Shown here one piece after another: positions 22,204 through 47,847 of a stretch of DNA of 64,000 bases; the stretch's first letter is position 1; each line of letters begins with the position of its first letter. The stretch covers positions 1 through 64,000 of the forward strand of contig QQVD01000056.1 of the NCBI GenBank assembly GCA_003388555.1, written 5' to 3'. The DNA comes from Acidobacteriota bacterium (GTDB taxonomy: Bacteria > Acidobacteriota > Thermoanaerobaculia > Multivoradales > Multivoraceae). The notes beneath the pieces are model-generated. The model was not told the DNA's origin and ran no database searches. It saw nothing but the letters and a program-made list of their open reading frames with translations. The position numbers were made by a program, and so were the translations under genes.

Positions 22204-23343
22204 CTACAGCCTGCTCAGCTCCTCGAGCGACAGCGACTGCAGAGCGCACACCGCCGCGGTCAGTTGCCCAGCGGCCGTCTCCTCGCCGTGGCTGGCACGG
22301 CCGCGAGCCTCGTCCCTGCTGCGTCGCCACCACTCCTGCACACTCTCGCTGGCCCGCGCGGTGAGGTCGACCAGCAGGCCGAAGGCCTCGTCGCCGAGCG
22401 GCGGCTCGCCGCGGTACTGGTGCACTCTGCCGCCCTCGCGCCGGCCGTCCTCGATGCCGAGCAGGCGGCGCGCCAGCGTTGCCGAGTAGTCGTCATAGGC
22501 GGCCACCAGACCGGCGAAGTCGGCCACGAGCTCGTCGTGCAGGTGGCTGTGCAAGGCGCCGGTCATCCTCAGGGTGAGGTAGTGGGCGCACTCGTGCTCT
22601 CGGCGCACGATCATCGAATCGCGTTCCCACTGCTCCGGGGCGCGACCGAGCTCGGCCGCGGCGACTCCCGAGTAGGGGCCGCAGCTGAGGACGACGAGGC
22701 GATCCTGATACTGGTCCTTGTGCTGCCGGAGGCGCTGGAACTCGGCGCGCCACGCCGAGCCGTCGAAGTCGGACGCCTGGCGACCGGACAGCCACCTCTG
22801 CTTCCAGCGCTCGATGCGATCCCAGTTGTTGAGGCCGCGCAGGATCATCGCGCCCATCTCCGGGCGCACCGGACGCGGCTCGCCCCGCTGCGCCAGCGCC
22901 TGCACCAGCAGCTCGAAGTCACGACGGTCCCTCGCCGTGAGCACCGGCACCCTGCCGGCCACCGAGCGGTGCAGCTCGATGGTGATGCCGTCGGGGTCGT
23001 GGAACGCGACGCCGTCCTCGGTCGACGCCGGCCACTCGCCGCGCAAGGTCGCCGCGCGGTACTCGTCGGTGCAGCTGATCCCTTCACGCACCGGGAAGCG
23101 CAGCTGCACCAGCCGCCTTCGCAGCGTCGCCACGGCGCCGTCGCGCTCCGCCTCTCGCACGTAGTCGCTCCACGCCTCGCACTGCGGCTCGTCTCCCGGA
23201 GGCAGATCGCCCGGATCGAGAGGCGGCGGCAGCGGGCTGCGCTTCAGCACCTCGTCGATCGCCGCCGCCGAGCCGCCGAGATCCGCGAGCACTCGTCGAC
23301 GCAGCTGCTGGCGCCGCGCCTCGTTGACGGCCGCGCCGCTCAC
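22204..23343 (-). CDS. HExxH-motif protein at the end of the NHLP operon
   Basis: A 379-residue protein that I do not recognise as a named family. In its C-terminal half it has REHECAHYLTLRMTG, an HExxH zinc-peptidase-type motif (H-E-C-A-H), followed about 16 residues on by HSHLHDELVADFAG, which offers candidate third ligands. The N-terminal half begins with helical arginine-rich sequence and contains EGISCTDEYRAATLRGEW. No signal peptide or membrane span is visible, so it should be cytosolic. The GTG start overlaps the TGA of the ABC exporter gene by four bases, which ties it to the RiPP operon. It could be a leader or immunity protease or a catalytically dead scaffold. The G-rich heptad array follows its stop. 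Confidence 0.65.
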   Translation of the reverse strand: MSGAAVNEARRQQLRRRVLADLGGSAAAIDEVLKRSPLPPPLDPGDLPPGDEPQCEAWSDYVREAERDGAVATLRRRLVQLRFPVREGISCTDEYRAATLRGEWPASTEDGVAFHDPDGITIELHRSVAGRVPVLTARDRRDFELLVQALAQRGEPRPVRPEMGAMILRGLNNWDRIERWKQRWLSGRQASDFDGSAWRAEFQRLRQHKDQYQDRLVVLSCGPYSGVAAAELGRAPEQWERDSMIVRREHECAHYLTLRMTGALHSHLHDELVADFAGLVAAYDDYSATLARRLLGIEDGRREGGRVHQYRGEPPLGDEAFGLLVDLTARASESVQEWWRRSRDEARGRASHGEETAAGQLTAAVCALQSLSLEELSRL

Positions 23344-26300
23344 ACGTGCTGGCGGGCCGCGAGCTGCGCGAACTTGCCGCCCAGCGCGATCAGCTCGTCG
23401 TAGCTGCCCTGCTCGGCGATGACTCCCTGATCGAGCACGCAGATGCGATCGGCGTTGCGGATGGTGCTGAGGCGGTGGGCGATGACGATGCGGGTCGCCT
23501 GCAGCCCGTCGATCGACTTGGTCACCATCGCCTGGGTGCGGTTGTCGAGCGCGCTGGTCGCCTCGTCCATGAACAGGATGCGCGGCCTGTGCACGATCGC
23601 GCGGGCGATCAGCAGGCGCTGCTTCTGGCCCCCCGAGAGGCCTCCTCCGCCGTCCGAGATGTAGGTGTGCATCTTCATCGGCATCGCCTTGATGTCGTCT
23701 TCGAGGCCGGCCATCCGCGCCGCCTCCCACGCATCGTCGACGGTCAGCGTCGCCGAGTTGCCGATGATGTTGCGGTAGAGCTCGGCGGGCAGCAGCTGGC
23801 TGTTCTGCAGCACCACACCGAGCTGCTGGCGCACCTCGCGGATGTCCAGCGAGTCGAGCTCCTGGCCGTCGTAGTAGGTCGATCCCTTCTGCGGGATCTC
23901 GAAGCCGAGCATCACCCGCATCAGGGTCGACTTGCCGCTGCCGGAGCCGCCGACGAAGGCGACGAATTCGCCGGGCCGGATCTTCAGCGTGATGTCGCGC
24001 AGGATCCAGGGCCCCTCCTCGTCGTAGCGGAAGTGCACGTGGGCGAGCTCGATCTCGCCACTCAGCCGGCCAGGGTACGACTTGGTCTCGGAGACCTCGG
24101 GCTCGGTGGTGACGATCGGCTTGAGGCGCTCGTAGATCGGCACCACCCGCAGCATGTTGAGCGACGCCTGGCTGAGCGCCATCGAGGCGGCGAGGAAGGC
24201 TCCGTAGGCGGCGTTGAAGGCGATGAACTCGCCGGTGCTGAGACCCACCGGATCGACCGCCCGCAGACTCACCAGGGTGAAGTAGATCGCCATCGCCGAG
24301 AGCACGCCGAAGCCGCCGTTGAAGACCTCGGCGAAGTTCTGGATGCGACCGACCTTGAATCCGAGCCGCCGCATGTCGGAGAACTCGGCGGCCCAGGTGC
24401 GGAAGGCGTGGTTCTCGGCTCCCGAAACGCGCAGCTTGGCGACGCCGGAGATGAGCTGCAGCACCAGTCCCGAGATGCGGCCGCCGCTGGCCATCATCTG
24501 GCGCTGGAAGTGCAGCTGCCAGTAGTTCACCGTCACCGTCACGCCGATGAACAGGGCGGTGAGCCCGACGGCGACGAGGCCGAGCCGGACCGAGTACTTG
24601 AACATCAGGAAGAGGTAGAAGACCGAGCTCAGCGAGCCGAGGATGGCCGAGATCCCGGCGCCGGCGAGCAGGTCGCGGATGGCGTTGATCCCGGCCGCCC
24701 GCTGCGCCAGGTCGCCGGCGGTGAAGTCGCGGAAGAAGCCCGACGGCAGGTTCAGCAGCCGGTCCCACAGTGCCGCGCCGATGGTGTAGTCCATGCGTCC
24801 CTGCATGCGCAGGGTGGCGATCGCCTGGGTAATGGTGAAGGCGGTGCGCACGAAGGCCGCGGCGAGCAGGGCGGCGACGAACTGGTAGAGCAGCGACCGC
24901 TCCGCCTGGGGTATCGCGGCGTCGAAGATCTGGCCCGAGATGTACGGGGTCAGGGCGCCGAGTACGCCGATCAGGATGCCCATCAGCGCCAGTCGCGCCA
25001 CGTCGGGCTGCATCCTGTGCAGGCCGAAGCGCAGCAGGTCGAGCGCCTTCAGGGGGCCGTCGGGGAACGGACGGTAGAAGCTCTGGGCGAAGTAGTCGAT
25101 GCCCTCGGCGAGGGATGCGTTGACCCGTCGGGTCTCGCCGCTGCGCGGGTCGTAGCAGACGTAGGCGTCGGCGCCCTTCGGGATCAGCGCCACCGGCTCG
25201 CCGCTCTCCTGCAGGGTCGCGAGCAGCGGTCCCAGGTCCTTCTTCCACCATCCCTCGCGCAGCACCACCTGCCGGTAGCGGAAGCGCGACGCCTTGGCGA
25301 TCATCGCCAGGCGATCGGCAAAGGGGAGGTCCGGGCGCAGGTCCGGGTGCGACTCGATGCGCATCCCGTGGTAGGCGCCGATGCGTGCGGCGGCGTCGAG
25401 CAGCGGGTCGTCGATCGCCGTCACCGGCCCGGTGGCGGCAACCGCCGGCTCGCTCGACCACTGCATCACCGCGGCGAGCTCCTGCAGCGCCGCCTCGCCC
25501 GCCGCCGAAGCGTGCTCGGCCTTCGAGCGCAGACGCTGGAACTCGTCGAGTGTGGCCAGGCGCTTGTTGATGAACTCGCAGCTGCACACCGCGGCGTGGA
25601 AGGTCTGCAGGCCGGCCCAGAAGCGCTCCTCGCCGACCACATCGGAGGCCGAGTGCGCCCACAGCACCACCTCGCCCTCGGCAACCGAGCCCTCCACCCA
25701 GGTGTCGGCGCTGAGCGGGAAGAGGCTGAGCGAGTAGGCCTGCTCGAGCGACGGTGCGCTGGCGTAGTTCAGCGACTCGCTGCTGACGAACAGCAGGTCT
25801 CCCGCCGCCGCCTCGACCCACAACACGCCGCGACGCGAGCGGGCCGTCTGCTGCGCCTGCAGGGCGACGTAGTCGTCGGGCTCGAGCATCAGATCGGCGA
25901 CCGGCGTCGGTGCCATGTCGCGGGTCAGGCGCTCGCCGAGCTGCACCACCCAGGCGTCCAGGGCGGCGGCGACGGCGGCGCTGTGGCTGTCGTCGAGGGC
26001 GAGCTGCTGCAGCCGTTCGAGCTCGATCCGCCGCAGCACGGTGCCCATGCGACCGACGGCGAGGAAACCGGCGTCGATGCCGTAGCGCGTCGGGTCGATG
26101 CCGAAGATCAGCGCCCCTTCGTCGAGGGTCATGAAGTAGCTGCGAGCGCCCTTCGCGGCGCCCGCCTCGATGTCGACGACGAAGAGATGCACCTCCCCCT
26201 CCTCGACCCACCACACGGTGTCCGGCGCGTCGATCAGGAAGGGCCGGTCGCCGCCGGCCTCGACAGCCTCGCCCTCCTGCGAGAGCAGGGCCGCGAGAAC

Positions 26301-26393
26301 CGATCCGGCGTCCTCCTCGCCGCGGGTCGCGGCGGGCGGCGGGGCGGATCCGTCGGCGGCGACGGAGGCGGCCTGAGGCTCGGGACTACTCAT
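23340..26393 (-). CDS. NHLP bacteriocin export ABC transporter, permease/ATPase subunit
   Basis: A 1017-residue half-transporter of the second NHLP exporter type. The first 450 residues form a large soluble region (DTVWWVEEGEVHLFVVDIE near residue 57 resembles a cyclic-nucleotide-binding-like fold) with no C39 catalytic cysteine. A six-helix ABC permease follows (about 460-760), then the nucleotide-binding domain with Walker A GGSGSGKST near 815, signature LSGGQKQRLLIARAI near 915 and Walker B RILFMDEATSALD near 935, all intact. It should act at the inner membrane together with the C39-containing exporter, whose gene it overlaps by eight bases. Confidence 0.92.
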   Translation of the reverse strand: MSSPEPQAASVAADGSAPPPAATRGEEDAGSVLAALLSQEGEAVEAGGDRPFLIDAPDTVWWVEEGEVHLFVVDIEAGAAKGARSYFMTLDEGALIFGIDPTRYGIDAGFLAVGRMGTVLRRIELERLQQLALDDSHSAAVAAALDAWVVQLGERLTRDMAPTPVADLMLEPDDYVALQAQQTARSRRGVLWVEAAAGDLLFVSSESLNYASAPSLEQAYSLSLFPLSADTWVEGSVAEGEVVLWAHSASDVVGEERFWAGLQTFHAAVCSCEFINKRLATLDEFQRLRSKAEHASAAGEAALQELAAVMQWSSEPAVAATGPVTAIDDPLLDAAARIGAYHGMRIESHPDLRPDLPFADRLAMIAKASRFRYRQVVLREGWWKKDLGPLLATLQESGEPVALIPKGADAYVCYDPRSGETRRVNASLAEGIDYFAQSFYRPFPDGPLKALDLLRFGLHRMQPDVARLALMGILIGVLGALTPYISGQIFDAAIPQAERSLLYQFVAALLAAAFVRTAFTITQAIATLRMQGRMDYTIGAALWDRLLNLPSGFFRDFTAGDLAQRAAGINAIRDLLAGAGISAILGSLSSVFYLFLMFKYSVRLGLVAVGLTALFIGVTVTVNYWQLHFQRQMMASGGRISGLVLQLISGVAKLRVSGAENHAFRTWAAEFSDMRRLGFKVGRIQNFAEVFNGGFGVLSAMAIYFTLVSLRAVDPVGLSTGEFIAFNAAYGAFLAASMALSQASLNMLRVVPIYERLKPIVTTEPEVSETKSYPGRLSGEIELAHVHFRYDEEGPWILRDITLKIRPGEFVAFVGGSGSGKSTLMRVMLGFEIPQKGSTYYDGQELDSLDIREVRQQLGVVLQNSQLLPAELYRNIIGNSATLTVDDAWEAARMAGLEDDIKAMPMKMHTYISDGGGGLSGGQKQRLLIARAIVHRPRILFMDEATSALDNRTQAMVTKSIDGLQATRIVIAHRLSTIRNADRICVLDQGVIAEQGSYDELIALGGKFAQLAARQHV

Positions 26394-29300
26394 CGATCAG
26401 GCTCTGGTAGGGGCCCTTGACGTTCTTCATCTCTTCGTGGGTGCCTCGCTGCACGATCTTGCCGCGGTCGAGGACGAGGATCTCGTCGCAGTCGCGGATC
26501 GTCGACAGGCGGTGGGCGACGATGATGCAGGTGCAGCCGCGACGTCGCAGGCTCTCGTCGATCTTCGTCTCGGTGGTCGGATCGAGAGCGCTCGTCGCCT
26601 CGTCGAGGATCAGGATCGTCGGCTCGCCGACCAGAGCCCTGGCGATCTCGAGCCGCTGGCGCTGACCGCCGGAGAAGTTCGAGCCTCCCTCTGAGACCGC
26701 CGAGTGGTAGGCACCGTCGCGGTTCTCGATGACCTCGGCGATCGCGGCGTCCTTGCACGCCCCGGTCACCGCGACGTCGCGGATGCTCGGGTCCCACATC
26801 GCTACGTTGTCGCGGATCGAGCCGGCGAACAGGAAGACCTCCTGGTCGACCACCGCGATGGAGTTGGTGATCAGGTCCGGCGGCAGCTGCTCGAGCGGGA
26901 TCCCGTCGTAGAGGATCTGGCCCGACCACGGACGGTAGAGGCCGGTGATCAGACGCGCGATGGTCGACTTGCCGCTGCCGCTGCCGCCGACCAGGCCGAT
27001 GCGCTGGCCGGGCTGGATGGTCAGGTCGAAGCCGGTGATCAGGGCCGGCTCGAGCGGCGAGTAGCCGAACTCGAGGTTCTTGAGCTCCACCTTGCCGCTG
27101 AGCTTCAGCAGGCCCTCGGCGGCGGGATGGCTGCGCCCCTCGCGCCGGTAGCGGTGATCCTGCGGGTACCGGGTGACGTCGTCGAGGCGGTTCATGTCGG
27201 CCTCGAGCTCCTGGATCGTCGAGCCGAAGGCGACGAAGGTGTTCAGCGGCCTGGAGAAGCTGGCCATCAGGGTCTGGTAGGCGACCAGCATGCCGACGGT
27301 GAGCTCGCCGTTCATCACCTTGAGGCCGCCGAGCAGCAGGATGGTGATGGTGGTGATCGAGTTGATCAGCGTCGGCACCGAGCCGACCCAGGCGCCGAGC
27401 ATGCCGATGTCCTGCTGCGCCTGCATCGCCTTGGCCTGGTAGCCGGCCCAGCGCGAGAAGAACTCGGCCTCGCCCCCGGTGGCTTTGAGGGTCTCGATCA
27501 TGCGCAGGCCGCCCATCGCGGTGCCGGTGAGCTTGCCCTCCTCCTGGGCGAGGCGGCGGCTGGCATCGACGCGGCGGCGCGAGACCAGGCGCACCGCGAC
27601 GACATTGAGCAACGCCAGAGCGATGCACACCAGGGTCAGGCTGACCGAGTAGATCATCATCAGCGCCGCGTAGAAGAACAGCAGCAGCATGTCGATCGCG
27701 GTGGTCGCGAGCTGGCCGGAGAGCACCCGCGCGACCTTGTCGTTGATCATCACGCGCGAGCCGATCTCGCCGGCGAAGCGCTGCGAGAAGTAGCTCACCG
27801 GCAGGCGCAGGATATGGGCGAAGAACTTGCTCGACTCGACCAGCGCCAGCTTGGTCTCGAGTCGTAGCAGATAGGTCTGCTGCAGGTAGTTGAGCACCAG
27901 CTGCAGCACCATCGTCAGCCCCATGCCGAGCAGCAAGGGCTGCACGATGGCGGCGCGGCCGGCGATCAGGTACTCGTCGATGAACACCCGGCTGAAGGTC
28001 GGGATGATCAGCCCCGGGATGACCAGGAAGAGGCCGGCGAGCACCACGAACGCGAGCGCGGTGCGCGAGCCGTCGAGGCGGCGCTGCAGCGCCGGGAAGA
28101 TGCCCGGCTTGTCACCCCCGGGCTCGAAGTCGTCCCCCGGCTCGAAGGTCAGGCAGACGCCCGAGTAGGAGGCGTCGAGGTCCTCCATGTCGAGAACCCG
28201 CGGGCCCTGCGCCGGATCGTTGATGTAGACCTTGCCGCCCTTGAAGCCCTCGAGCACCACGAAGTGGTTGAAGTTCCAGAACAGGATGGCCGGGAAGGTC
28301 AGGTCGAAGAGCTGTTTCAGGTCGTTCTTGAACCCCTTGGCCACCAGCCCGTACTTGCGCGCTCCCTTGAGCACGTTGCTCGCCTTGCTGCCGTCGCGCG
28401 AGACACCGCAGTCGACCCGCAGATCCTCGAGCGCGACGAAACGCTTGTAGTGGCGCAGCACGATCGCCAGCGCCGCGGCGCCGCACTCCACCGCCTCCAT
28501 CTGCAGCACGGTGGGAGTGCGCACCCGCCGGCTGGGAGGCTTGGGCAGGTCGCTCGCCTCGTCTTCGTCGACGCGCGCCTTCGGCTTGGCTTCGCTCTCC
28601 GGCGCCGGCGCCGGTCGGTGGGCGCGGCGAGGCTTGCGCCCCTCCTCCGAAGGCGTCGGCCTCTTGCGCTGGGGGCGCACCGCCGACGGCGCGGGCGGCT
28701 TCGAGCGCAGCGCCGCCGGCTGGTCGGCGAGGCGCAGCACCAGCGACAGGTCGAACGGATCCTCCGCGGTCTTCTCGCGCTTGGAGGGCTGCTTGAACAA
28801 TCCCGCAGGAGAGGAGGCACGCGGCGCCGAGCCTTCGGCCGGAGCCGGCACGGCTTCCGCGGGGCGACCTTCAGAGCCCGTCGACGGGGCCGTGGCCGGC
28901 CTCTCGGGGCGCGCAGCGGGCTCCCGGGACTCCTGGGAGGGCCGCGCAGCAGGCGTGCGGGCTGGCGGCGCGGGCGCCGGTGGTGACACGGCGGGCGGCT
29001 TCTCCTCACGACCGCCTGTGCCCGGCGGGCCGGCCGGCTCGGCGCCGGATGGCGCGAAGCGGGTCGACAGCGGATCCGGCGCAGCGTCCGGCGGTTGACG
29101 ATCGGCCGCGACCTGCGATCGCGGAGGATCCTGCGGCGCGGGATCGGGCGGCGGATCCACTGCCGCGGGCGGATCCGGGACGGCACGCTCGCCGGAGGAT
29201 TCCGCAGACACCGACGACACCGACGGCACCGACGGCACCGACGGCACGGCGGCAGGCTCGGGGGTCCGCGGTCGCGGCTCATCCGACGGCTGCGCCTCGG

Positions 29301-29619
29301 CAGGTGGCGCCTCCGTCTCGGCCGGCGCCTGCTCGACCAGCTCGAAGACGAACTCGATCTCGCCGAAACGCACGACGTCGCCCGAACCGAGCATCGTCAC
29401 CTGATGGATGCGCACGCCGTTGACCTGGGTGCCGTTGGAGCTGCCCAGGTCCTGCACCGAATAGCCCTTGCCGGCCGGCTCGAGCAGGGCGTGCCGGCGC
29501 GAGACGGTGCCGTGCAGGATCTGCACCCCGGCCGCCTCGTCGCGGCCGATCAGGGTCGAGCCGGTGAGCGTCACGGTTTCCGCGTCGTGCCGCGGCCGGA
29601 GCAGTGCGATGTTCGCCAT
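26386..29619 (-). CDS. FHA domain-C39 peptidase-ABC transporter fusion (NHLP exporter, peptidase/permease/ATPase)
   Basis: A 1077-residue peptidase-containing ABC transporter. Residues 20-75 form an FHA domain (LIGRDE, SRRHALLE, LGSSNGTQVNG). A Pro/Ala-rich linker of about 270 residues follows. The C39 peptidase begins near residue 370 with MEAVECGAAALAIVL (catalytic Cys about 379), then FNHFVVLEG (His) and YINDPAQG (Asp), so the triad is complete. The permease spans about 500-790 and the ATPase carries GGSGSGKST near 876, FSGGQRQRLEIARAL and ILILDEATSALD. It should cut leaders after Gly-Gly and export the core. The FHA domain is unusual for this family and implies control by protein phosphorylation. 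Confidence 0.93.
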   Translation of the reverse strand: MANIALLRPRHDAETVTLTGSTLIGRDEAAGVQILHGTVSRRHALLEPAGKGYSVQDLGSSNGTQVNGVRIHQVTMLGSGDVVRFGEIEFVFELVEQAPAETEAPPAEAQPSDEPRPRTPEPAAVPSVPSVPSVSSVSAESSGERAVPDPPAAVDPPPDPAPQDPPRSQVAADRQPPDAAPDPLSTRFAPSGAEPAGPPGTGGREEKPPAVSPPAPAPPARTPAARPSQESREPAARPERPATAPSTGSEGRPAEAVPAPAEGSAPRASSPAGLFKQPSKREKTAEDPFDLSLVLRLADQPAALRSKPPAPSAVRPQRKRPTPSEEGRKPRRAHRPAPAPESEAKPKARVDEDEASDLPKPPSRRVRTPTVLQMEAVECGAAALAIVLRHYKRFVALEDLRVDCGVSRDGSKASNVLKGARKYGLVAKGFKNDLKQLFDLTFPAILFWNFNHFVVLEGFKGGKVYINDPAQGPRVLDMEDLDASYSGVCLTFEPGDDFEPGGDKPGIFPALQRRLDGSRTALAFVVLAGLFLVIPGLIIPTFSRVFIDEYLIAGRAAIVQPLLLGMGLTMVLQLVLNYLQQTYLLRLETKLALVESSKFFAHILRLPVSYFSQRFAGEIGSRVMINDKVARVLSGQLATTAIDMLLLFFYAALMMIYSVSLTLVCIALALLNVVAVRLVSRRRVDASRRLAQEEGKLTGTAMGGLRMIETLKATGGEAEFFSRWAGYQAKAMQAQQDIGMLGAWVGSVPTLINSITTITILLLGGLKVMNGELTVGMLVAYQTLMASFSRPLNTFVAFGSTIQELEADMNRLDDVTRYPQDHRYRREGRSHPAAEGLLKLSGKVELKNLEFGYSPLEPALITGFDLTIQPGQRIGLVGGSGSGKSTIARLITGLYRPWSGQILYDGIPLEQLPPDLITNSIAVVDQEVFLFAGSIRDNVAMWDPSIRDVAVTGACKDAAIAEVIENRDGAYHSAVSEGGSNFSGGQRQRLEIARALVGEPTILILDEATSALDPTTETKIDESLRRRGCTCIIVAHRLSTIRDCDEILVLDRGKIVQRGTHEEMKNVKGPYQSLIDE

Positions 29620-29625
29620 GTACGC

Positions 29626-30768
29626 TCAGCTCGCCCCGATCGCCTTCTTGAAGATCGGCACCACGTACGAGATCGGCCGGCGCTCCTCCACCGTGACCTT
29701 GGCCATGATCGGAGTGCCCGAGAAGACCTGCACCGGCGGACCGGTCGACGAGGACCAGCGGAAGCCCGACGGCGTCGCCGGCTCCTTCTCGAGCCGCGCC
29801 ACCACCTGGAAGGGCGCGCCGTCACCGGTCAGGGCGTTGACGGTGTTCTGGTTGCGCAGCGTGCGCATCAGCGACTCGGGGCTCTCCGGGTAGTCGCCGA
29901 CGGAGAGCACCTCGGCCATCATGAAACCGTACTCCTCTGGCTTGACCGTCGCCGGCGAGACCCGCACCTCCATCCCCTCCTGCACCTTCTTGCCGTCGGT
30001 CGCGGGGACGTAGAAGACCGCCGCGAGATCGCTCTCGAACGACTCCATGGTCACCAGCCTCGAGCCGCCGCCGACGAGGTCGCCGACCGTCGCCACCACC
30101 TCGATCACCCGGCCCGAGAACGGGCTGCGCACCTCGGAGCTCGATTCGCGCTCGCGCTCCAGCTCGTCGAGCTGTCGCCGGATCGCGTCGACCCGGTTCT
30201 CCTGCCCGGTCTGACGGTCCTGCTCGCCGCGGATCTGCTGCCGGATCTGGGTGATGCGCTGCTCGGTGGCGAGCACCGTCGAGCGGGTGATCAGGCCCTT
30301 CTGCAGCGACTCCCGCTGCCGCTCGAGCCTGGCCTGCTGGGCGCGCAGCTCGGCGTACAGTCCCGAGGTCACGTCGCCGGCGCCGCCCTGCGTGCTCGCC
30401 TGGGCGATCGCCTCGTCGAGCTCCTCGCGCTTGTTGCGGATGCGCAGCTCCAGCGCCTCCTGCGACAGGCGCGCCACCAGATCGCCCTGCGACACCGAAT
30501 CGCCCTCGGCGACGAGGATCTCGATCAGCCGCCCCTGGGAGCCGGCGGTGATCGAGAGCAGCCCCTCGCCCGGGATCAGGATGCCGCTGCCGTCGACCTT
30601 GGTCGACACCGTGCCGAGGAATCCCCACAGCACGATGAGGATCAGCACCGAGCCGACCGCTCCGAGCGCGATCCACCCGCGCGGCGAGGTGACCTGCATC
30701 GCCACGTCGAGCTGCTCGGGTGAGGCGAGTCGGTCGAGTGCGGCTTTGCGGAACAGCTGCTTGGCCAT
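29626..30768 (-). CDS. NHLP system HlyD-type periplasmic adaptor
   Basis: A 380-residue membrane fusion protein. One transmembrane helix (WIALGAVGSVLILIVLWGFLG) follows a short cytosolic start, then a lipoyl-like half (GQGRLIEILVAEGDSV variant: GSQGRLIEILVAEGDSVSQG), a coiled coil of about 100 residues (ELRIRNKREELDEAI... QQIRGEQDRQTGQ), the second half-motif PFSGRVIEVVATVGDLV, and a beta-barrel domain. It should bridge the ABC exporters to TolC. The ATG at 30768 has AGGAG about eight bases upstream. Its stop lies six bases before the C39 exporter start. It matches the HlyD-like secretion protein found in NHLP bacteriocin operons. Confidence 0.92.
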   Translation of the reverse strand: MAKQLFRKAALDRLASPEQLDVAMQVTSPRGWIALGAVGSVLILIVLWGFLGTVSTKVDGSGILIPGEGLLSITAGSQGRLIEILVAEGDSVSQGDLVARLSQEALELRIRNKREELDEAIAQASTQGGAGDVTSGLYAELRAQQARLERQRESLQKGLITRSTVLATEQRITQIRQQIRGEQDRQTGQENRVDAIRRQLDELERERESSSEVRSPFSGRVIEVVATVGDLVGGGSRLVTMESFESDLAAVFYVPATDGKKVQEGMEVRVSPATVKPEEYGFMMAEVLSVGDYPESPESLMRTLRNQNTVNALTGDGAPFQVVARLEKEPATPSGFRWSSSTGPPVQVFSGTPIMAKVTVEERRPISYVVPIFKKAIGAS

Positions 30769-30841
30769 CGTTACTGGTCTCCTCGATCGGTCGCGTACGC
30801 ACAGCGTCGAGCCGGTGACTCGGGGGATCTTCGCGCCGCGC

Positions 30842-31717
30842 TCATGCCCGGCCCACCAGCCAGCCCTCGAACCAGGTCTGGACCTGGGCGGAGCAGAAGA
30901 AGATCGCCGGGTAGGTCGCGAAGTAGGTGAAGATGAAGGCGTTGAGGCCCATGAAGACACCGTTGAGCAGATGGAAGGTGGCCGCCCAACCCACCAGCAG
31001 CAGGCAGCCCGGCATGCCGGTCAGCAGCACCAGCGGGAAGGCCGTCTCGAGCACGATCACCGCGCTCATCACGTAGCGCAGCCGTACGCCGCGATCCGCC
31101 AGCCCCGCCAGGAACGGATGACCGAACAGGCTGTGGCGGGCGAAGAGCGGGAAGACCTGACCCGAGCGCCAGGACTTCACGAACGCCTTGTGCCAGCCGT
31201 TCGAACAGTACGAGAGCACCGACTGCAGAGCGACGAACCAGAGCGCCCCCTGCACCACGAGCGGGTTCGAGCTCTGCATCCAGGCAAAGGTGAGGCCGAA
31301 CCAGACGATCAGCTCCATCGAGTCGGCGCCGCTCGCCTGGGGCTGCCGGGCGATCGTCAGGGCGCAGCTGGTGGCGATCACGAGACTGAGCGGGCCCAGC
31401 GGCCACGCCGACGCCGGCAGCTCGGCGCTCGACAGCACGGCGAGCAGCGCCACCACCGCGACCAGCCGGGTCAGCGGCAGCACCAGCACCGCCGGGTAGG
31501 TGGCCGGGAAGCCGATCCGCGACAGCTCGCGGAAGCGCTGCTTCTGGACGTGCCAGGCGAGCGCGCCGTCGTCGCGGAACATGCGGCGCGCCGCCAGCAA
31601 CTCGAGGCTGGCGACCAGTGAAGCCAGCGACGCCAGCACGGTGACCAGGCGCAGCATCGCCAGCGGCTCGCCGACCGCAGTCGCCAGGCGATCGAGCATC
31701 GCGACGAGCTCGCTCAA
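30842..31717 (-). CDS. HTTM/SdpB-like multi-pass membrane protein
   Basis: A 291-residue membrane protein with about seven hydrophobic segments. The central segment LSYCSNGWHKAFVKSWRSGQ, followed by FARHSLFGHP, recalls HTTM-type proteins (the fold shared by vitamin K gamma-carboxylase-like proteins and SdpB), where a W-x-K...W-x-x-G pattern follows the second or third helix. SdpB-like proteins assist maturation of the SdpC toxin in other bacteria. Here it sits inside the lanthipeptide operon, directly after a small membrane-protein gene. The TTG at 31717 abuts that gene's stop; an ATG six codons later (31699) is an alternative. Roles in immunity, maturation or redox are all possible. Confidence 0.55.
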   Translation of the reverse strand: MSELVAMLDRLATAVGEPLAMLRLVTVLASLASLVASLELLAARRMFRDDGALAWHVQKQRFRELSRIGFPATYPAVLVLPLTRLVAVVALLAVLSSAELPASAWPLGPLSLVIATSCALTIARQPQASGADSMELIVWFGLTFAWMQSSNPLVVQGALWFVALQSVLSYCSNGWHKAFVKSWRSGQVFPLFARHSLFGHPFLAGLADRGVRLRYVMSAVIVLETAFPLVLLTGMPGCLLLVGWAATFHLLNGVFMGLNAFIFTYFATYPAIFFCSAQVQTWFEGWLVGRA

Positions 31718-32269
31718 TCATCCCTCCCCACCGCCATCGGAGCCATCGCGGAGCGGCAGCGGCGAGATCGGCGGCGACCGGTAGATCAGGCACCTGCCCG
31801 CGTCCTCCGGTGGCTCGGCGCCGAGCACGATGGCGAACCGCCGCTCGCCGGCGGCGGGCGCGGGCATCGAGGCGACGACGTTGCGCAGCGCCTTGAAACC
31901 GGTCGAGGTCTGCAACCGGCTCACCATGCCCCAGGCCGAGCGGCGTGCCTGGAGAGCGTGCCCCGCCTGCTCGCGGGCGGCGTAGAAGAGCCAGAAGCCG
32001 CGGCGCACCTCCGGATTCCACACCAGCTGGCGCAGCCGCCGGCGCACGCCGTAGTCGACCGGCCGCCAGTCGCCGGGTCCCTCTTCGATCCACAGTCGCA
32101 GGTCGGCCGGCGGCAGCACGAACAGCGTCCAGTTCGGCCACAGCCCGAAGCGGTTCGCCCGCTCGAGCAGCTGGCCGATCCGGCGGCCCTCGAACTGGTT
32201 GAGGAAGGTCAGCAGGAACACCACGCCGAGCACCGACAGGGAGATCGCCGACCAGGCGTCCGGGCTCAC
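31718..32269 (-). CDS. Small single-span membrane protein, possibly SdpA-like
   Basis: A 183-residue protein with one N-terminal hydrophobic helix (ISLSVLGVVFLLTFLNQF) and a soluble domain containing NRFGLWPNWTLFVLPPADLRLWIE. That tryptophan and proline pattern faintly resembles SdpA, the partner of SdpB, but I am not confident. The domain ends with VLGAEPPEDAGRCLIYRSPP and a glycine-rich tail. The start overlaps the end of the upstream TolC gene by four bases, and its stop touches the next gene, so it belongs to the operon. It likely works with the HTTM-like protein as a membrane pair. Confidence 0.5.
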   Translation of the reverse strand: MSPDAWSAISLSVLGVVFLLTFLNQFEGRRIGQLLERANRFGLWPNWTLFVLPPADLRLWIEEGPGDWRPVDYGVRRRLRQLVWNPEVRRGFWLFYAAREQAGHALQARRSAWGMVSRLQTSTGFKALRNVVASMPAPAAGERRFAIVLGAEPPEDAGRCLIYRSPPISPLPLRDGSDGGGEG

Positions 32270-34329: not shown

Positions 34330-36347
34330 CGCGCCGCCTCGGGCAGGCTGACCAACGACCCGGCGTCGATCTCGGCGCCGCCGTCAGAGATCCGCACCAG
34401 GCTGCCGGTCTCGAAGCGCAGCCGGGCCAGCAGCTGGGCGTAGCGCACCTGTGCCGCGATCTGCGCCAGCAGCGCATCGGTGGTGCGCTCCTCGGTGAGG
34501 ATGGCATCGATCAGCGTCGCGCTGCCGAGGCGGAAGCGCTCGAACTCGTCCTCGACGGTGCGGTTGTACGCCTCGACGGCGGCTTCGGCGTGCACCAGCT
34601 GGGCGCGGGTGTCGATCAGCGACTGCCAGATCTCCGCCACGTTGCTGCGGATCAGACGCTCCAGGTTGCGGGCCGAGATCTGGCTCTGCGCCACCAGCGC
34701 CTGCTGCTGGCTGTAGAAGCCGCGGGCGGCGTTGTTGGCGAGTGGTCGGGCGTAGTCGAGGGCGGCGGAGGCGCTGGGCCCGACCCACGAGTCGTCGAAC
34801 AGCTCGGAGTAGGAGTCGTCCACTGCGTTGCCGAGGCTCCAGTCGGTGGTGAAGTCGAGCTGCGCCGCCAGATCCCGCTCGGCGGCGGCGAGCAGCACCC
34901 GTCCCGAGTCCTCGAGCAGCCGCGCTGCCAGCAGGTCGCGACGCTCCGAGAGCGCACCGGTGACCAGCGGCGCCGGCGGAGCACCGTCCATTCCCGGCGC
35001 CCCCTCGGGGCACTCGCCGACCGCGGTCGGCGCGTCGGCGGCGTCGTCGAGCTCGATCCCGATCGTGCGAGCGAGGTCGATCGCCGCCAGCTGCACCGCA
35101 TTGCGCGCCACCTGCAGCGAGCTGCGGGCGTTGGCCATGCGGGCGTCGATGCGCGGCAGCTCGGCCGCCGGCAGCTCGTCGGCCTCGATCAGGCCGCGGC
35201 TGAGCTCGGTGAGACGACCCTGACGCTGCAACGAGGCGTCGAAGACCTGCAGCCGACGCTGCGCCCCCAGCAGCTCCCAGTAGGCGAACGCGGTGGAGAG
35301 CGCGGTCTCCGACGCGCCGTGCAGCAGCGACGCCTCGCTGGCGTCGAAGTCGATCTCGGAGGCGCGCTCGAAGGCGCCCGTCGACACCTTGCCGCGCCCC
35401 TTCAGGAGCGGCGCCGTCAGCGAGAAGCCGATGCGGCCGGTGTACAGATCGGGGATCCCCTTGCCGCCCTTCTGCGGATCACGCGGCTTGCCCTTGTAGT
35501 TGCTGCCCTCACCGGTGAAGTCGAGGTCGGGGCTCAGTCTCAGGCCGTTGCGGAAGGTCTTGTCGAAGCCGAGGTTGAAGCTGCCGAACCAGCTCTCGTC
35601 GATGTCGGGCACGTCGCCGAGCATGGTGAGGTCGTCCTGCGCCGTCATGGCCGACTCGCGGGCATCGTCGATCAGCCCGGTGAGGATGTCGATCTCGGCG
35701 CCGATGGCGTCGTTGCGCAGTCCCTCGAGCTGCTGTCGCAGCGCCGGGTCGTTGGCGTCGGCGATCAGGATGTCGAGCAGGCCGACGTTGGTCAGGAAGT
35801 CGGGATCGAGCAGCGCCAGCTCGGCCGGGGTGAGGCTGCCGATGTCGGGATTGGCCTGCAGCCTCTGCACCACCAGGCGCGACTGGGTCAACACGTCGGC
35901 CTGGAAGTTGCCGGCGTCGATGTCCTGCTGCAGCATGTCCCGCTGCTCGCGCAGCGGCTCGAGCTGCGACTCGGTCAGCGCGTCCTGGTTGTATTCGCCG
36001 CGGACCGTGCTGCTGATCACCAGGTCGAACTGGCCCTGTGCCTCCTGCAGCAGGCCGAGCGAGAAGTCGCGATCGGTCTCACGCAGGCGCAGGTTGGGAT
36101 CGTGGGAGATCGCCAGCCGCACCGCCTCCTCGAGGTCGAGCGCCCGGGATTCGGCCGGCAGCGGCTGCCACTCCCGCGCCATCGGCTCCGGCAGCGCGCG
36201 TGCGCCGTCGTCCTCGGCCGATGCCGCGACCGGGGCCATCGCCCAGCCGGCGAGAGCCGCCGCGGCCAGGACCGCCCAGCCATGGACCCAGGCGCGTCCG
36301 CCGTCGGGGCGCCCCACTGCGATCTCGATCGTGTCCGGACTGCTCAT
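34326..36347 (-). CDS. TolC family outer-membrane efflux protein (first copy)
   Basis: A 673-residue TolC-family protein. A basic start leads to a hydrophobic signal segment (WAVLAAAALAGWAMAPVAAS). The first repeat opens with ALDLEEAVRLAISHDPNLRL, coiled-coil sequence follows (LPAAELPRIDARMANARSSLQ), and the end carries RLGSATLIDAILTEERTTDALL, a typical late TolC motif. Like its neighbour it has an extra segment of about 150 residues between the first helices. The two share architecture but are divergent, so they may form mixed channels or serve different cargo. The ATG overlaps the LanM stop by four bases (ATGA). Confidence 0.88.
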   Translation of the reverse strand: MSSPDTIEIAVGRPDGGRAWVHGWAVLAAAALAGWAMAPVAASAEDDGARALPEPMAREWQPLPAESRALDLEEAVRLAISHDPNLRLRETDRDFSLGLLQEAQGQFDLVISSTVRGEYNQDALTESQLEPLREQRDMLQQDIDAGNFQADVLTQSRLVVQRLQANPDIGSLTPAELALLDPDFLTNVGLLDILIADANDPALRQQLEGLRNDAIGAEIDILTGLIDDARESAMTAQDDLTMLGDVPDIDESWFGSFNLGFDKTFRNGLRLSPDLDFTGEGSNYKGKPRDPQKGGKGIPDLYTGRIGFSLTAPLLKGRGKVSTGAFERASEIDFDASEASLLHGASETALSTAFAYWELLGAQRRLQVFDASLQRQGRLTELSRGLIEADELPAAELPRIDARMANARSSLQVARNAVQLAAIDLARTIGIELDDAADAPTAVGECPEGAPGMDGAPPAPLVTGALSERRDLLAARLLEDSGRVLLAAAERDLAAQLDFTTDWSLGNAVDDSYSELFDDSWVGPSASAALDYARPLANNAARGFYSQQQALVAQSQISARNLERLIRSNVAEIWQSLIDTRAQLVHAEAAVEAYNRTVEDEFERFRLGSATLIDAILTEERTTDALLAQIAAQVRYAQLLARLRFETGSLVRISDGGAEIDAGSLVSLPEAAR

Positions 36348-39300
36348 CCCACCACTCCTTCTCTCTGGGCCGGCGGCGCGGATCGCGTCGGCCGACCGTG
36401 GTTCTGGAAATCGATTCCTTCGCAGATCTGCCTGTCGACTGCTGCCGGCCTGGACGGGCGCCGCGACACCTCGAGCGCCGTCAGCGAGGCCGGCCCCGAC
36501 TGCAGCCGCAGGAGCACGGTGCCGACGCCGGCGAGACCGCGGAACAGCGAGGCGACGGCGCCGGGGGCGGCATCCTCGCCACTCGCCTGGTCGGCCGAGC
36601 CGTCGACGCCGTAGCCCAGTGCGGCGAGCTCCGCGGCCCCTTCGCCCAGCCGCTCGGCGCAGCGCGCCCGCGCCCGCGAGACGACGATCGCGGCGCGCAT
36701 CTCGGCGGCGCGGCGCACGGTCTCGTCACCGGTCGCCTCGGCGACGGTGAGCATCGCGTCGACCAGCCCGAGATTGCCGCAGCAAACGTGGTCCACCGCG
36801 CTCACCGGCACGTACCTCGTGGCGACTTCGGCCCGCTGCAGGCTGCCGGAGCCGAGCTCGATGCCGGCGGCGGTCGCCGCGGCGCGGGCGACCGCCATCC
36901 CCGGAGCGCCGTTGCACCAGGTGCGCGCCGCCGTCGCGGCCACGGCGGAGCCGGCTTGCTGTGGCGCCGCTTCCAGCGGCCAGTCGCCGAGCGCCGGCGA
37001 GAACCTGGCGTCCTCCCACGCGATCGCCTCGGCGGCCGCGCGCGAGAACGGCGAATAGCCGCTCAGAGAGAACAGGCGGGTCAGCGCCAGGGCAACGCCA
37101 GAGTTGCCGTGCGCCAGACCGAGCCGACCGTCGCCGTCCGCCGGCGCGGCAGCGGTCCAGAAGACGCCGTGCCCGTCGCAGCGCGACCGCGACAGCAGCT
37201 CGAGCCCGCGGCGGAAGGCACAGTCGTAGAGCCGATCCAGGCCGCTCGCCTCGGCGATGGCGCAGAGCGCCAGCACCCAGCCGGCGAGACCGGAGTCGAG
37301 ATCGAAGGCGGCGACCGCGTCGGCCTCGGCATCGGTGCGCAGCGCCAGCTCGGCGGCCGCCGCCGACAGCTCGGGATCGTCGAGCGCCGCGGCGCCCCGC
37401 AGCAGGCCGAGGACCCTCGATCCGACACCGGTGAGGGCTCCGAGCCGACCCGCGCCGAGGTCCCCGAGGTCTCCCTGGCAAGCCCGTAGCAGCACCTGGC
37501 GCGCCGCGCTTCCTCGCCGAGCGGCGGATGTGGAAGCGCCGGGAGCCTCGAGCCAGCGGCCCGCCTCGGCGAGGAAGACCGCGATCCCGAGGTCTCCGAG
37601 ATAGAGGCTCGACGCGAGGGTCCCAGCCTGCGGCCGCCGCGAGCCGACCGGTTCGGCGAGCCAGGCCTCGAGCCGATCGACGATGCGCTCGACCTCGGCG
37701 CGCAGCGTCTCGCTCCCGAGCCGCTCGTCGGCGGTGAACCGCCAGCCGGAAGCCACGTCGGCGGAGGTCACCTCGATCCGGCTCGGAGCGTGCAGGGCGA
37801 GGTCGATGACTGCCGTCTGCGTCGCCAGATCGTCGTCATCGAGCCCGCCGATACGCTCCACCACGAGCTGCCAGGCCGACGGCTGTCCGGCGAAGAGCTG
37901 GGCCATGGCGCGGTCGCCGTCACCCGCCGCGCTGCGTTCGGCGTCGGCGTGCGAAGCGGCGTCGGGATCGACGCGGATCAGGAAGTAGGGCAGATCGCCG
38001 CGGTCGAGGCTGCGCTGCTCGTGCTCGACCAGATCGAAGGCCGGCGGTCGTCGCGCCGCACCCAGCAGCGGTCGGTAGAGACCCTCGAGGGCGAGCGAGC
38101 GAGCGTGCGCGGTGCGCTGCTGCGCCGGCATCGAAAGTGCCTGCAACACTCCTGCGTAGAAGTCGCTGGTGCGCGGCAGCACCCGGGCGCGGGCGGCGCG
38201 GAAATCTCTCAGTGGGCCCTGCTCGGCGAGCAGCTCGCTGCGATTCCTCACGAACCAGCGGTAGGCCGTCGCGAACCCGTCGCGCAGCGCTTCGCCGTGG
38301 TCGCGTGGCGTCGCGCGGCCGCTCGGCGTGCCTGGGAGGTTGCGCTCCCGCGGCGCCTCTCCGGCCTTCCACAGCGGCATCAGACCGTCCCTGCCGACGC
38401 CGCGCCAGATCCGGCGCCTCGGGATGCAGTGACCTCCGGGTCCACTCAGCCCGCCGACGTCGTAGCGCTCGCCTCCGGAGCCGCTCTGCTCGAGACGCAG
38501 CAGGCCGGGAGCGATCACCGACTCCGCGAGAACCTCGTGGTCGAGTCCGAACGACGACGTGTGACCGTGTCGCGCCATGGCGCCGTGGGCCAGGCTCGGC
38601 GAGCAGAAGGTCTCCGCGTCGACCACCACCGGCCCCTCGGCGGAGGCCACGACGTTGCCCCAGTGCAGGTCGGTGGCGCGCAGCGCCCAGGCCACGAACA
38701 CGAGGCCGCCGGCGCGGAAGAAGTAGCGTTCGACGTCGCGCCGGTCTTCGAAGCTCGCCGGCCCCACGACGCCCCGCATCCAACCGTACCCGTCGCCGGC
38801 GACGACCTCGGCCCGCGGCAGCGTCGGCCCACCGCGTCGCTGCATCCACTCGAGTAGCGTGCACAGCGCCAGCTCGAGCTCGACCGGCCGCGGCTTGTAG
38901 TAGAGCTCGAGCCCTCCGCTGAACCGCAGGCGCACGACGCTGCGCCCGCCGGCGTGCGCATCGGCGAGTCCTGGGTGGGCGCCGAGCGCGCGGCCGAGAG
39001 CCCGGCCGGCGTTCCACTTGCGGAGCAGCCCCTCGTCGCGCTCGAGGCGCAGCGCCAGCTCGTCGACCGCCTCGGTCCAGTCGATGGCGATCCGCGCCAC
39101 CTGCCTCGCCAGGCAGCTGTACTCAGCGAACAACGCCGCCAGACCCTCGCCGCTCGACATCTCGGCGACGAAGCGTCGGTGCGCTCCCGGAGTCGCATCG
39201 GCATCGCGACGGCGCTTGAAGCGCTGGTAGAGAGCGAGCTCGCCGACGCGCGCCAGGCGCAGCAGCAGCCAGCTCTCGAGCGCCTCGAGGGCAGGCGGCG

Positions 39301-39715
39301 CGAAGCGGCGGCGACTGACGTCGCCGAGCCGTTCGCTGGCCAGGCGGACCGTGCCTGCCCACACCTCGGCGAACGGCGGAGGCTCGCCGACCACCAGCGC
39401 CAGACGCCTGGCGCGCGCCTGCGAATCGGCAAGCTCCCGGTCGCTCGACGCGGCGACAACCTCGCCGATGGTGCTCAGCTCGGCGGCGTCGCCTTCCTCC
39501 TGCCGCGAGGCGGCGGCGCGCAGCTCGCCCGGCCGGATCCCGCCCCACCGCAGCCGCCGACGCAGCGCGACCGCGCCACCGAGCGCCTCGCTCCACGCCG
39601 CGACCAGCGGAGCGGAGTTTCCGGTCTCGGGCAGCACGGACAGCGCCTCCCGGGTGCGATCGCGAGGCAGTCCCCGGGATCGTCGCGCGATGGTCGACAG
39701 CGGATCGGTGGTCAT
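36344..39715 (-). CDS. lanM: Class II lanthipeptide synthetase (LanM), CCG type
   Basis: An 1123-residue bifunctional enzyme. The N-terminal dehydratase half has the kinase-like motifs LYYKPRPVELEL, RATDLHWGNVV (about residue 350) and VVDAETFCSP, which phosphorylate and eliminate Ser/Thr. The C-terminal LanC-like cyclase has GLAHGNSGVALAL near 867, then the zinc ligands TWCNGAPGM near 931 and VCCGNLGLV near 977. The adjacent Cys-Cys replaces the usual Cys-His, which defines the CCG group that includes ProcM. It should convert precursor Ser/Thr to dehydro residues and close (methyl)lanthionine rings. No strong Shine-Dalgarno site precedes its ATG, unlike the precursors. It follows them on the same strand. 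Confidence 0.95.
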   Translation of the reverse strand: MTTDPLSTIARRSRGLPRDRTREALSVLPETGNSAPLVAAWSEALGGAVALRRRLRWGGIRPGELRAAASRQEEGDAAELSTIGEVVAASSDRELADSQARARRLALVVGEPPPFAEVWAGTVRLASERLGDVSRRRFAPPALEALESWLLLRLARVGELALYQRFKRRRDADATPGAHRRFVAEMSSGEGLAALFAEYSCLARQVARIAIDWTEAVDELALRLERDEGLLRKWNAGRALGRALGAHPGLADAHAGGRSVVRLRFSGGLELYYKPRPVELELALCTLLEWMQRRGGPTLPRAEVVAGDGYGWMRGVVGPASFEDRRDVERYFFRAGGLVFVAWALRATDLHWGNVVASAEGPVVVDAETFCSPSLAHGAMARHGHTSSFGLDHEVLAESVIAPGLLRLEQSGSGGERYDVGGLSGPGGHCIPRRRIWRGVGRDGLMPLWKAGEAPRERNLPGTPSGRATPRDHGEALRDGFATAYRWFVRNRSELLAEQGPLRDFRAARARVLPRTSDFYAGVLQALSMPAQQRTAHARSLALEGLYRPLLGAARRPPAFDLVEHEQRSLDRGDLPYFLIRVDPDAASHADAERSAAGDGDRAMAQLFAGQPSAWQLVVERIGGLDDDDLATQTAVIDLALHAPSRIEVTSADVASGWRFTADERLGSETLRAEVERIVDRLEAWLAEPVGSRRPQAGTLASSLYLGDLGIAVFLAEAGRWLEAPGASTSAARRGSAARQVLLRACQGDLGDLGAGRLGALTGVGSRVLGLLRGAAALDDPELSAAAAELALRTDAEADAVAAFDLDSGLAGWVLALCAIAEASGLDRLYDCAFRRGLELLSRSRCDGHGVFWTAAAPADGDGRLGLAHGNSGVALALTRLFSLSGYSPFSRAAAEAIAWEDARFSPALGDWPLEAAPQQAGSAVAATAARTWCNGAPGMAVARAAATAAGIELGSGSLQRAEVATRYVPVSAVDHVCCGNLGLVDAMLTVAEATGDETVRRAAEMRAAIVVSRARARCAERLGEGAAELAALGYGVDGSADQASGEDAAPGAVASLFRGLAGVGTVLLRLQSGPASLTALEVSRRPSRPAAVDRQICEGIDFQNHGRPTRSAPPAQREGVVG

Positions 39716-43258: not shown

Positions 43259-44545
43259 TCAACGCTGCCTCCTGTCGTTGCTGATCGCGGACGAAGGCGT
43301 GGTGGCCGGGCCCCCGGTCGCCTCCGCCCGCTCCGGCTTCAGCCGGTGATGTCTCAAGAAGTCCATGAATCGCTGGTAGTCCTGGGAATCGACGCCGAAC
43401 AGCGGCAGCAGCTCCTGGTAGCTGCCCGAACAGCGGCGCAGCCCGGCCTCGACGATGCGCTGCACCTCGGCGCGGTTGAGGTCGCGGTCGAGGAACGGCC
43501 GGTGTACGGACTCCCAGAACGAGCCCTCGCCACGGGCCATCCTCTCGACCAGCTCGCGGCTGACGTCGCTGGACGAAGCGCCGGAGTGGCGCAGGACCTG
43601 CTCGACGTCGGAGGGCCGGATGGTGTGACCGTCGCACATCGCGTAGCCGATCGTCGCGACGCTGAGCAGCTCGCGCACGTTGCCGGGCCAGTCGTACTCG
43701 GCGAGCAGCTCGATCGACCGCGCCGAGAAGCGCTTGCGTTCTCCGTAGCGCTCGGCGAGCTGACGCATGGCGCGCTCGAGCAGCAGCAGCCAGTCGTCGT
43801 CGCGCTCGCGCAACGGCGGCATCTCGACCACGAAGTTACGCAGCCGGTAGAAGAGGTCCTCGCGGAACTCGTGCTCGGCGATGAGCTCGCGCAGCGGCCG
43901 GTTGGTGGCGGCGACCACCCGCACGTCGACCCGCTGCGAGCGCTCTGCGCCGAGCGGTTGGATCTCTCCGCTCGACAGCGCCCGCAGCAGCATCACCTGG
44001 GCGTCCATGTGCAGGTCGGCGACCTCGTCGAGGAAGACCGTTCCTCCCTCGGCCTGGGCGAAACACCCCTTGCGCCGCCCGAAGGCCCCGGTGAAGCTGC
44101 CCTTCTCGTGTCCGAAGAGCTCGCTCACCGTCAGGTTGCCCTCGCGGTACTGGGGGCAGTTCACCGACACCATCGGACCGCGGCGTGGGCTCAGCAGGTG
44201 CACGGTCTGCGCCGCGAGCTCCTTGCCGACTCCGCTCTCGCCGATCACCAGCACCGGTTCGGCGAAGGCCGCGAACTTGCGCAGCTGCTCGAGCGCCCGC
44301 ACCAGCGCCGGCGAGCGGCCGACGATGTGCACCACCCGATTCTCGCCCCAGTCGGCGACCGAGCGCGCCCGCACCATGTCGGCGACGCCGCACAGGTCTC
44401 CGTTCGGCTTCGGCTGGCGAAGCAGCGCCCGGCTTCCGGTCGCCGCCTGTCGTCCTCCACTCACTTCGATCGTCTCGGCCCGCACCACTCCCCCTCGAGA
44501 GTCGACTCGAACCGGATCACGCAGTTCACGGCCCCGGCAGGTCAT
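43259..44545 (-). CDS. Sigma-54-interacting transcriptional activator (bEBP)
   Basis: A 428-residue AAA+ activator. The central domain has Walker A GESGVGKE, the sigma-54 contact loop GSFTGA (a variant of GAFTGA), GGTVFLDEVADLH as Walker B, and LRERDDDWLLL and YDWPGNVRELL downstream. The C-terminal LRRCSGSYQELLPLFGV followed by SQDYQRFMDFLRHH fits a FIS-like helix-turn-helix. About 75 N-terminal residues hold no receiver, GAF or PAS domain, so the activating signal is not obvious. I chose the ATG at 44545, with GGAG ten bases upstream; GTG 44563 is an alternative. It is the first gene of the RiPP locus and probably turns on the precursors. Confidence 0.88.
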   Translation of the reverse strand: MTCRGRELRDPVRVDSRGGVVRAETIEVSGGRQAATGSRALLRQPKPNGDLCGVADMVRARSVADWGENRVVHIVGRSPALVRALEQLRKFAAFAEPVLVIGESGVGKELAAQTVHLLSPRRGPMVSVNCPQYREGNLTVSELFGHEKGSFTGAFGRRKGCFAQAEGGTVFLDEVADLHMDAQVMLLRALSSGEIQPLGAERSQRVDVRVVAATNRPLRELIAEHEFREDLFYRLRNFVVEMPPLRERDDDWLLLLERAMRQLAERYGERKRFSARSIELLAEYDWPGNVRELLSVATIGYAMCDGHTIRPSDVEQVLRHSGASSSDVSRELVERMARGEGSFWESVHRPFLDRDLNRAEVQRIVEAGLRRCSGSYQELLPLFGVDSQDYQRFMDFLRHHRLKPERAEATGGPATTPSSAISNDRRQR

Positions 44546-44568
44546 CCCGCCTGGCTCCGTCACTTCTT

Positions 44569-44899: not shown

Positions 44900-45397
44900 A
44901 TGGAACTGACCACTCGAGAGGTCGGCGAGGTCACGCTCGTCGAGCTGTCCGGCGACCTCGACGGCAGGAACACCGCCAAGCTGACAGAGGCCGCCTCACG
45001 GCTGATCGCGCGCGGCAGGACGCGGCTGGTGCTGAGCTTCCAGCAGGCCGGCCGGGTCGACAGCAACGGCGTGCGCGCCCTGCTCCTGGTGCTCAAGCGG
45101 ATGCGCGCCGCAGGGGGCGGTCTGGTGCTCTGCGAGCTGCCGAAGCAGGTGGCGTCGGCGTTCGAGTTCGCCGGCCTGTCGAAGTCCTTCGCGGTGACGC
45201 CGACCCGCGAACAGGCCATGCGTGAGGTGGAGCTCGAGGCGCAGCGCGAGCAGACCGGAAGCCGGGTCGTCGAGGTCGCAGTCGATGACTCCGGGGTCGC
45301 GACCGCCGAGGTGGTCGAGCTCAGCGAGGCCGAGCGTCAGGCTCTGGAGCTGTTCCACCAGATGGAGGCGCCGGCCTTCGACTCCGACGAGGGCTGA
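44900..45397 (+). CDS. STAS-domain anti-sigma factor antagonist-like protein
   Basis: A 165-residue protein. Residues 1-100 form a STAS domain: TLVELSGDLDGRNTAKL, then RLVLSFQQAGRVDSNGVRALL, where the Ser of DSNGV occupies the site phosphorylated in SpoIIAA/RsbV-type antagonists, and LVLCELPKQVASAFEFAGL. The last 60 residues are an acidic, charged tail (REVELEAQREQTGSRVVEVAV) unlike classic RsbV and without a recognised domain. No kinase or phosphatase partner gene is adjacent, so the partner is unknown. It is transcribed away from the RiPP activator and converges on the cNMP/FHA gene. Confidence 0.8.
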   Translation: MELTTREVGEVTLVELSGDLDGRNTAKLTEAASRLIARGRTRLVLSFQQAGRVDSNGVRALLLVLKRMRAAGGGLVLCELPKQVASAFEFAGLSKSFAVTPTREQAMREVELEAQREQTGSRVVEVAVDDSGVATAEVVELSEAERQALELFHQMEAPAFDSDEG

Positions 45398-47774: not shown

Positions 47775-47847
47775 CTCGCTAGCGTAGCAACGCGCTCGAA
47801 CCCGACGTGGCACGGCCTGCGGCGGCGAGCCGACGGTGCGAAGGGCG

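Follow-up and report, generated by a model that had tools for sequence, protein, structure and literature searches.

Several described transport systems come close to the one analysed here. NHLP/Nif11 is a bacteriocin export system that corresponds to the families TIGR03794, TIGR03796 and TIGR03797 (Haft et al. 2010, PMC2887384). In Rv1747 of Mycobacterium tuberculosis, an ABC exporter with an FHA tag, the FHA/linker module condenses upon phosphorylation by PknF, an effect that PstP reverses (review PMC9312465). The FHA I domain of Rv1747 binds a threonine-dependent partner (PMC5549992), and a further report places the kinase gene in the same operon (PMC3908365). Here we describe a gene at 26386-29619 of a 64,000-nucleotide stretch of an Acidobacteriota bacterium genome (contig QQVD01000056.1; the whole stretch is hereafter ‘the window’), which encodes an N-terminal FHA domain, a linker predicted to be disordered and an NHLP exporter subunit with a C39 leader peptidase.

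The window locus is like the NHLP/Nif11 system in having the same three transport genes, NHLP precursors and a LanM synthetase, but no FHA domain has been described on the NHLP/Nif11 exporter (PMC2887384), and in the loci that we compared cyclic-nucleotide-binding (cNMP-binding) neighbours are frequent elsewhere. With Rv1747 it shares an N-terminal FHA domain and disordered linker on an ABC exporter, and the nearest solved sequence to the window FHA domain is an Rv1747 entry, 6cah. However, Rv1747 has two FHA domains, a nucleotide-binding domain (NBD) that precedes the transmembrane domain (TMD) (PMC9312465), no C39 domain and a kinase in its operon, whereas the window protein has one FHA domain, the order C39-TMD-NBD and no operon kinase. 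It resembles Rv1747 in the layout of FHA domain and tether, and is not a member of the Rv1747 family. PCAT1/ComA-type C39 transporters have no N-terminal FHA domain and linker, and consist of one homodimeric subunit instead of a pair of subunits, ABC1 and ABC2. Their C39-TMD-NBD core and catalytic motifs (for example, in 4ry2) are like those of the window protein. Our literature search found no paper that pairs an FHA domain with Peptidase C39 or describes one on an NHLP exporter, in agreement with the original prediction, made from the window sequence, that no well-described NHLP exporter is known to have such a fusion.

An intact FHA domain on a leader-cleaving exporter

The open reading frame, on the minus strand, is uninterrupted over 1,077 amino acids (aa), and its ATG lies two codons after the preceding in-frame stop. 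Pfam matches place FHA at aa 22-86, Peptidase_C39 at 368-496, ABC_membrane at 529-792 and ABC_tran at 863-1010. The NCBIfam family TIGR03796 (NHLP peptidase/permease/ATPase) covers aa 367-1075, spanning C39, TMD and NBD, with 1093.4 bits against a curated cut-off of 853.3. The catalytic residues Gln373, Cys379, His452 and Asp468 of the peptidase are intact, the NBD has its Walker A, Walker B, signature and H-loop motifs, and all of these are invariant in alignments with relatives. The earlier description of a leader-cutting exporter is borne out by these matches and motifs, and the sequence identifies the gene product as ABC1, which cleaves the leader in an NHLP lanthipeptide exporter built from two subunits.

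The FHA match is well above the PF00498 cut-off (Table 1), and the residues of its phosphate site are intact: G25 and R26 (GR), S40, R41 and H43 (SRRH), and N62 and G63 (NG). Nearly all of them are invariant in alignments with relatives, and they are kept in other FHA domains. An AlphaFold2 (AF2) model of aa 1-105, with a predicted local distance difference test score (pLDDT) of 89, gives Z scores of 17-18 against the FHA domains of EmbR, GarA and OdhI. Profile score, phosphate-site residues and modelled fold all agree on an intact FHA domain at the exporter N terminus, as had been proposed, and we infer from its sequence that it binds phosphothreonine. A full-length AF2 model was set aside because alignment depth over the FHA domain and linker was too low, leaving both poorly predicted.

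The linker, with 43% Pro plus Ala and nine threonines, measures nearer 250 aa than the roughly 270 first estimated. Its middle part (aa 98-262) has no clear codon-position signal, but the linkers of relatives with FHA on ABC2 are equally weak in signal. The FHA domain and the sequence from aa 263 onward both have a clear coding signal, in the same frame and with no stop between them. The frame holds a single weak internal start with a Shine-Dalgarno-like motif, GTG at codon 211, so the separate gene that the original prediction had allowed for, arising by a frameshift or internal start, is unlikely. In G002, a genome of the same family as the window, ABC1 is extended at its N terminus by a Pro-rich segment, in frame and at least 157 aa long where the contig ends, which has in common with the window protein an AGLF motif and, after it, a basic stretch. 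A search for the missing N terminus of this protein found no HlyD and no fitting FHA contig end; the extension is probable, if incomplete, support for the fusion, which we regard as very probably real.

FHA domains on the exporters of one lineage

We gathered NHLP ABC1/ABC2 pairs from 80 genome-contig loci, from all genomes of the window's class in the collection and from an even draw of its phylum, with long ABC1 frames additionally sampled in Planctomycetota. No other ABC1 among these pairs has an FHA domain, and the extended Planctomycetota frames are also without one. However, 24 other non-redundant loci, from the window's class and other parts of its phylum, encode an ABC2 that begins with one or two FHA domains, whereas none of the 103 loci of more distant NHLP exporters has any. 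On ABC1 the fusion is therefore unique to the window among the collected loci, but an FHA domain linked to the exporter is not a one-off. The FHA-tagged ABC2 subunits of Acidobacteriota are likewise unpublished as far as we searched. In these relatives the same exporter complex is tagged, in many cases through a Pro/Ala linker, and their ABC1 cores are mostly 64-69% identical to that of the window. They differ in the subunit that bears the FHA domain, in having one or two copies and in FHA sequences that group apart from the window's; the window ABC2, unlike theirs, has no Pfam match to FHA.

In a combined ABC1 and ABC2 tree the window falls into a 22-row group with 100% SH-aLRT support, composed of the window, L138, L147 and those FHA-ABC2 loci whose subunits were sufficiently complete, and all but two rows have an FHA domain on one subunit. 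The exceptions are L147, which has none, and L138, whose status is undecided because its ABC1 N terminus is cut by a contig end after an extension of at least 157 aa. The exporter-core tree and the distribution of FHA domains together indicate that attached FHA domains are the mark of a single exporter lineage, in which the window differs by bearing its domain on the subunit with the peptidase. In the best tree of FHA domains the window sequence lies outside the ABC2-FHA group, and forcing the two together is 8.3 log-likelihood units worse (approximately unbiased test, p-AU 0.186). A simple move from ABC2 to ABC1 is disfavoured by this tree though not rejected, and either relocation or a second gain on ABC1 may account for the window domain.

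Signalling genes beside FHA-tagged exporters

A coiled-coil-FHA gene is found near the exporter in 10 of the 24 FHA loci and in none of the 103 others, whereas a cNMP-binding neighbour occurs in none of the 24 and in 40 of the 103; Fisher values for these contrasts overstate significance because the loci share ancestry. The small cNMP-binding protein is encoded beside NHLP exporters in many phyla (for example, L137:2774-3340 and L140:9612-10193). An FHA-GAF-SpoIIE phosphatase gene adjoins the exporters of L010, L012 and L013, and a STAS protein gene lies near the exporters of these three loci and of L179. In G002, a coiled-coil-FHA remnant, assigned by position since the contig has only its FHA end, is adjacent to cNMP-FHA, FHA-GAF-SpoIIE and STAS genes.

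The window's own STAS and cNMP-FHA genes lie about 4 kb upstream of the precursor genes. The latter had been noted as a second FHA protein with no direct link to the exporter; the tie that we find is indirect, in that this gene, together with the STAS gene, is kin to the FHA/STAS/SpoIIE set that flanks the FHA-tagged exporters of relatives.

Repeated DAT[V] motifs occur in the Pro/Ala linkers of coiled-coil-FHA proteins (L010:16354-17598, L159:10594-11643 and similar), at 9 against 0.5 in shuffled sequences, and these DATV-like motifs are possible phosphothreonine sites. As FHA targets we treat them as a lead only: they occur in 5 of 10 proteins, were picked post hoc and are near-absent from exporter linkers.

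A possible phosphothreonine switch and its alternatives

In the mechanism that we favour, an NHLP ABC1 would have gained a cytoplasmic phosphothreonine receptor, the FHA domain, on a long flexible tether. A Hanks-type kinase would phosphorylate a partner protein at a threonine, or possibly the linker of the exporter itself, and binding of this residue by the FHA domain would dock, cluster or gate the ABC1/ABC2 complex. Kinase activity would then set the time or place of leader cleavage and export, and a phosphatase of the PP2C type would reset the exporter. By analogy with the response of Rv1747 to kinase and phosphatase, we consider it the most likely reading, with moderate confidence, that the exporter is docked or gated by its FHA domain through a partner that bears phosphothreonine; within this scheme the partner, the kinase and any influence on cleavage or export are what we infer. 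What the sequences show is that the motifs of the FHA, peptidase and ATPase domains are intact, that the gene lies in an operon, that FHA domains are attached to one or other exporter subunit across the clade and that an FHA/STAS/SpoIIE neighbourhood recurs. The presence of the domain on either subunit across the clade suggests that lanthipeptide export is tied to Ser/Thr-kinase signalling.

The original prediction, that export or leader cleavage may depend on phosphothreonine signalling, is a reasonable one that the clade-wide pattern makes firmer, but the kinase gene in the window, which had been noted with no direct link to the exporter, does not help it. This kinase (61708 to 64000) is the nearest in the window, more than 30 kb from the exporter, and Pkinase matches number 81 across the 6.8 Mb of the genome, or about 0.76 per 64 kb. 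With some 80 kinases in the genome it carries no weight, and we rejected it as evidence of linkage. A kinase is found in the sampled flank of 4 of the 24 FHA loci, roughly as density predicts. Elsewhere on the same contig, at G000:C5:194-199 kb (L189), four clustered FHA matches lie next to a kinase.

Several observations weigh against the switch. Kinase genes are not enriched beside FHA exporters above genome density. The window is without neighbouring coiled-coil-FHA and SpoIIE genes, whose homologues lie elsewhere in the genome on contigs C67 and C1. The window FHA domain has diverged from those on ABC2, and its placement in the tree is uncertain. Moreover, the FHA group is one clade, so that the locus counts are not independent and the contrast partly reflects shared ancestry.

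FHA domains can also serve as plain scaffolds. The window domain could hold the exporter constitutively beside LanM, a further FHA protein or some other partner, phosphorylated or even not, to serve assembly and substrate channelling with no switching. The long flexible linker and the clade's tolerance of the domain on either subunit are consistent with such a role, but the phosphothreonine-site residues are conserved, and the neighbourhoods of several relatives hold, besides STAS proteins, a phosphatase of the PP2C type that has GAF and FHA domains, which points to a switch; we consider a pure scaffold unlikely. Less probable still is that the domain recognizes a phosphothreonine of its own linker or of the neighbouring subunit and so clusters transporters in the membrane, as proposed for Rv1747. 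The precedent, the similar layout of FHA domain and disordered tether ahead of the transporter, and the nine linker threonines favour it, although nine is few, the linkers of ABC2 relatives have no common Thr motif, and Rv1747 has two FHA domains where the window protein has one. A separately encoded or artefactual FHA segment, with a non-coding or wrongly joined Pro/Ala stretch and an ABC1 that starts downstream, is very improbable: the weak signal over aa 98-262 and the failure to find a second complete genome with FHA on ABC1 would suit it, but the identical frame on both sides, the absence of a stop, the equally weak linkers of relatives and the matching G002 extension speak against it.

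Features of the operon and its surroundings

The exporter belongs to what is, from its gene content, a complete operon for lanthipeptide production and export. All genes are on the minus strand and tightly spaced, in the order of three NHLP precursors, LanM, two TolC-like proteins, two small genes, HlyD, FHA-ABC1 and ABC2; a gene for a DUF7005 protein comes after ABC2.

Table 1. Coordinates of the exporter gene, its domains and other features in the window
Feature	Position	Strand	Basis
FHA-linker-C39 peptidase-ABC exporter (NHLP ABC1), whole gene	26386..29619	-	TIGR03796 1093 bits; Pfam domains
FHA domain (aa 22-86), N terminus of ABC1	29362..29556	-	PF00498 60.9 bits, cut-off 20.7; phosphothreonine-site residues; AF2 fold
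Pro/Ala-rich linker (aa 98-345), predicted disordered	28585..29328	-	Composition; low pLDDT, where the alignment behind the model is shallow
C39 leader peptidase domain (aa 368-496)	28132..28518	-	PF03412 113.8 bits; Q373, C379, H452, D468 invariant
Partner subunit ABC2 (permease/ATPase, no peptidase)	23340..26393	-	TIGR03797 907 bits, cut-off 709.4
HlyD-like NHLP secretion protein (true start may be internal)	29626..30960	-	TIGR03794 309 bits, cut-off 156
Two tandem TolC-like outer-membrane proteins	32266-34329, 34326-36347	-	PF02321 in both
LanM class II lanthipeptide synthetase	36344..39715	-	TIGR03897 450 bits, cut-off 304
Three NHLP precursor peptides	39864-40304, 40375-40812, 40901-41338	-	TIGR03793 62-69 bits, cut-off 50.9
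Sigma-54 activator, no FHA match	43259..44563	-	PF00158; family F10; related activators near the module in L012, L207
STAS-domain protein	44900..45397	+	Pfam; family F8; homologues between or beside relatives' FHA-GAF-SpoIIE and coiled-coil-FHA genes
cNMP-binding-FHA protein	45461..46255	-	Pfam; homologue at L207 562-1383 beside FHA-GAF-SpoIIE gene, same-family genome

Each precursor has a long Gly-rich stretch past the GG site and a single Cys in its predicted core, so LanM could make at most one thioether ring per peptide. The two genes between the TolC-like genes and HlyD (30842-32269) have no Pfam or NCBIfam match, and the longer one is membrane-protein-like. Residues 1-330 of the window ABC2 also have no Pfam match, yet this region is common to many NHLP ABC2 proteins; its sequence resembles a beta-roll and may be a cNMP fold that has degenerated. 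A large EgtB-like protein with FGE-sulfatase-like and weak DinB domains is encoded at 46410-48881, immediately upstream of the gene for cNMP-FHA.

Implications

It is conceivable, although we hold it only tentatively, that in one Acidobacteriota lineage the cyclic-nucleotide-binding neighbour was replaced, as the control input of NHLP export, by a circuit of Ser/Thr phosphorylation, composed of the FHA domain on the exporter, a coiled-coil-FHA adaptor, an FHA-GAF-PP2C phosphatase and STAS, and that FHA domains were attached twice independently, on ABC2 and, in the window's lineage, on ABC1. Little is known about how the export of ribosomally synthesized and post-translationally modified peptides is controlled after their synthesis. 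A phosphothreonine receptor attached to the exporter offers a direct handle on whether Ser/Thr kinases time the exit of lanthipeptides. If the proposed control is true, the idea of phospho-controlled ABC transporters that comes from Rv1747 would reach the secretion of peptides in a soil phylum that is abundant and little studied.

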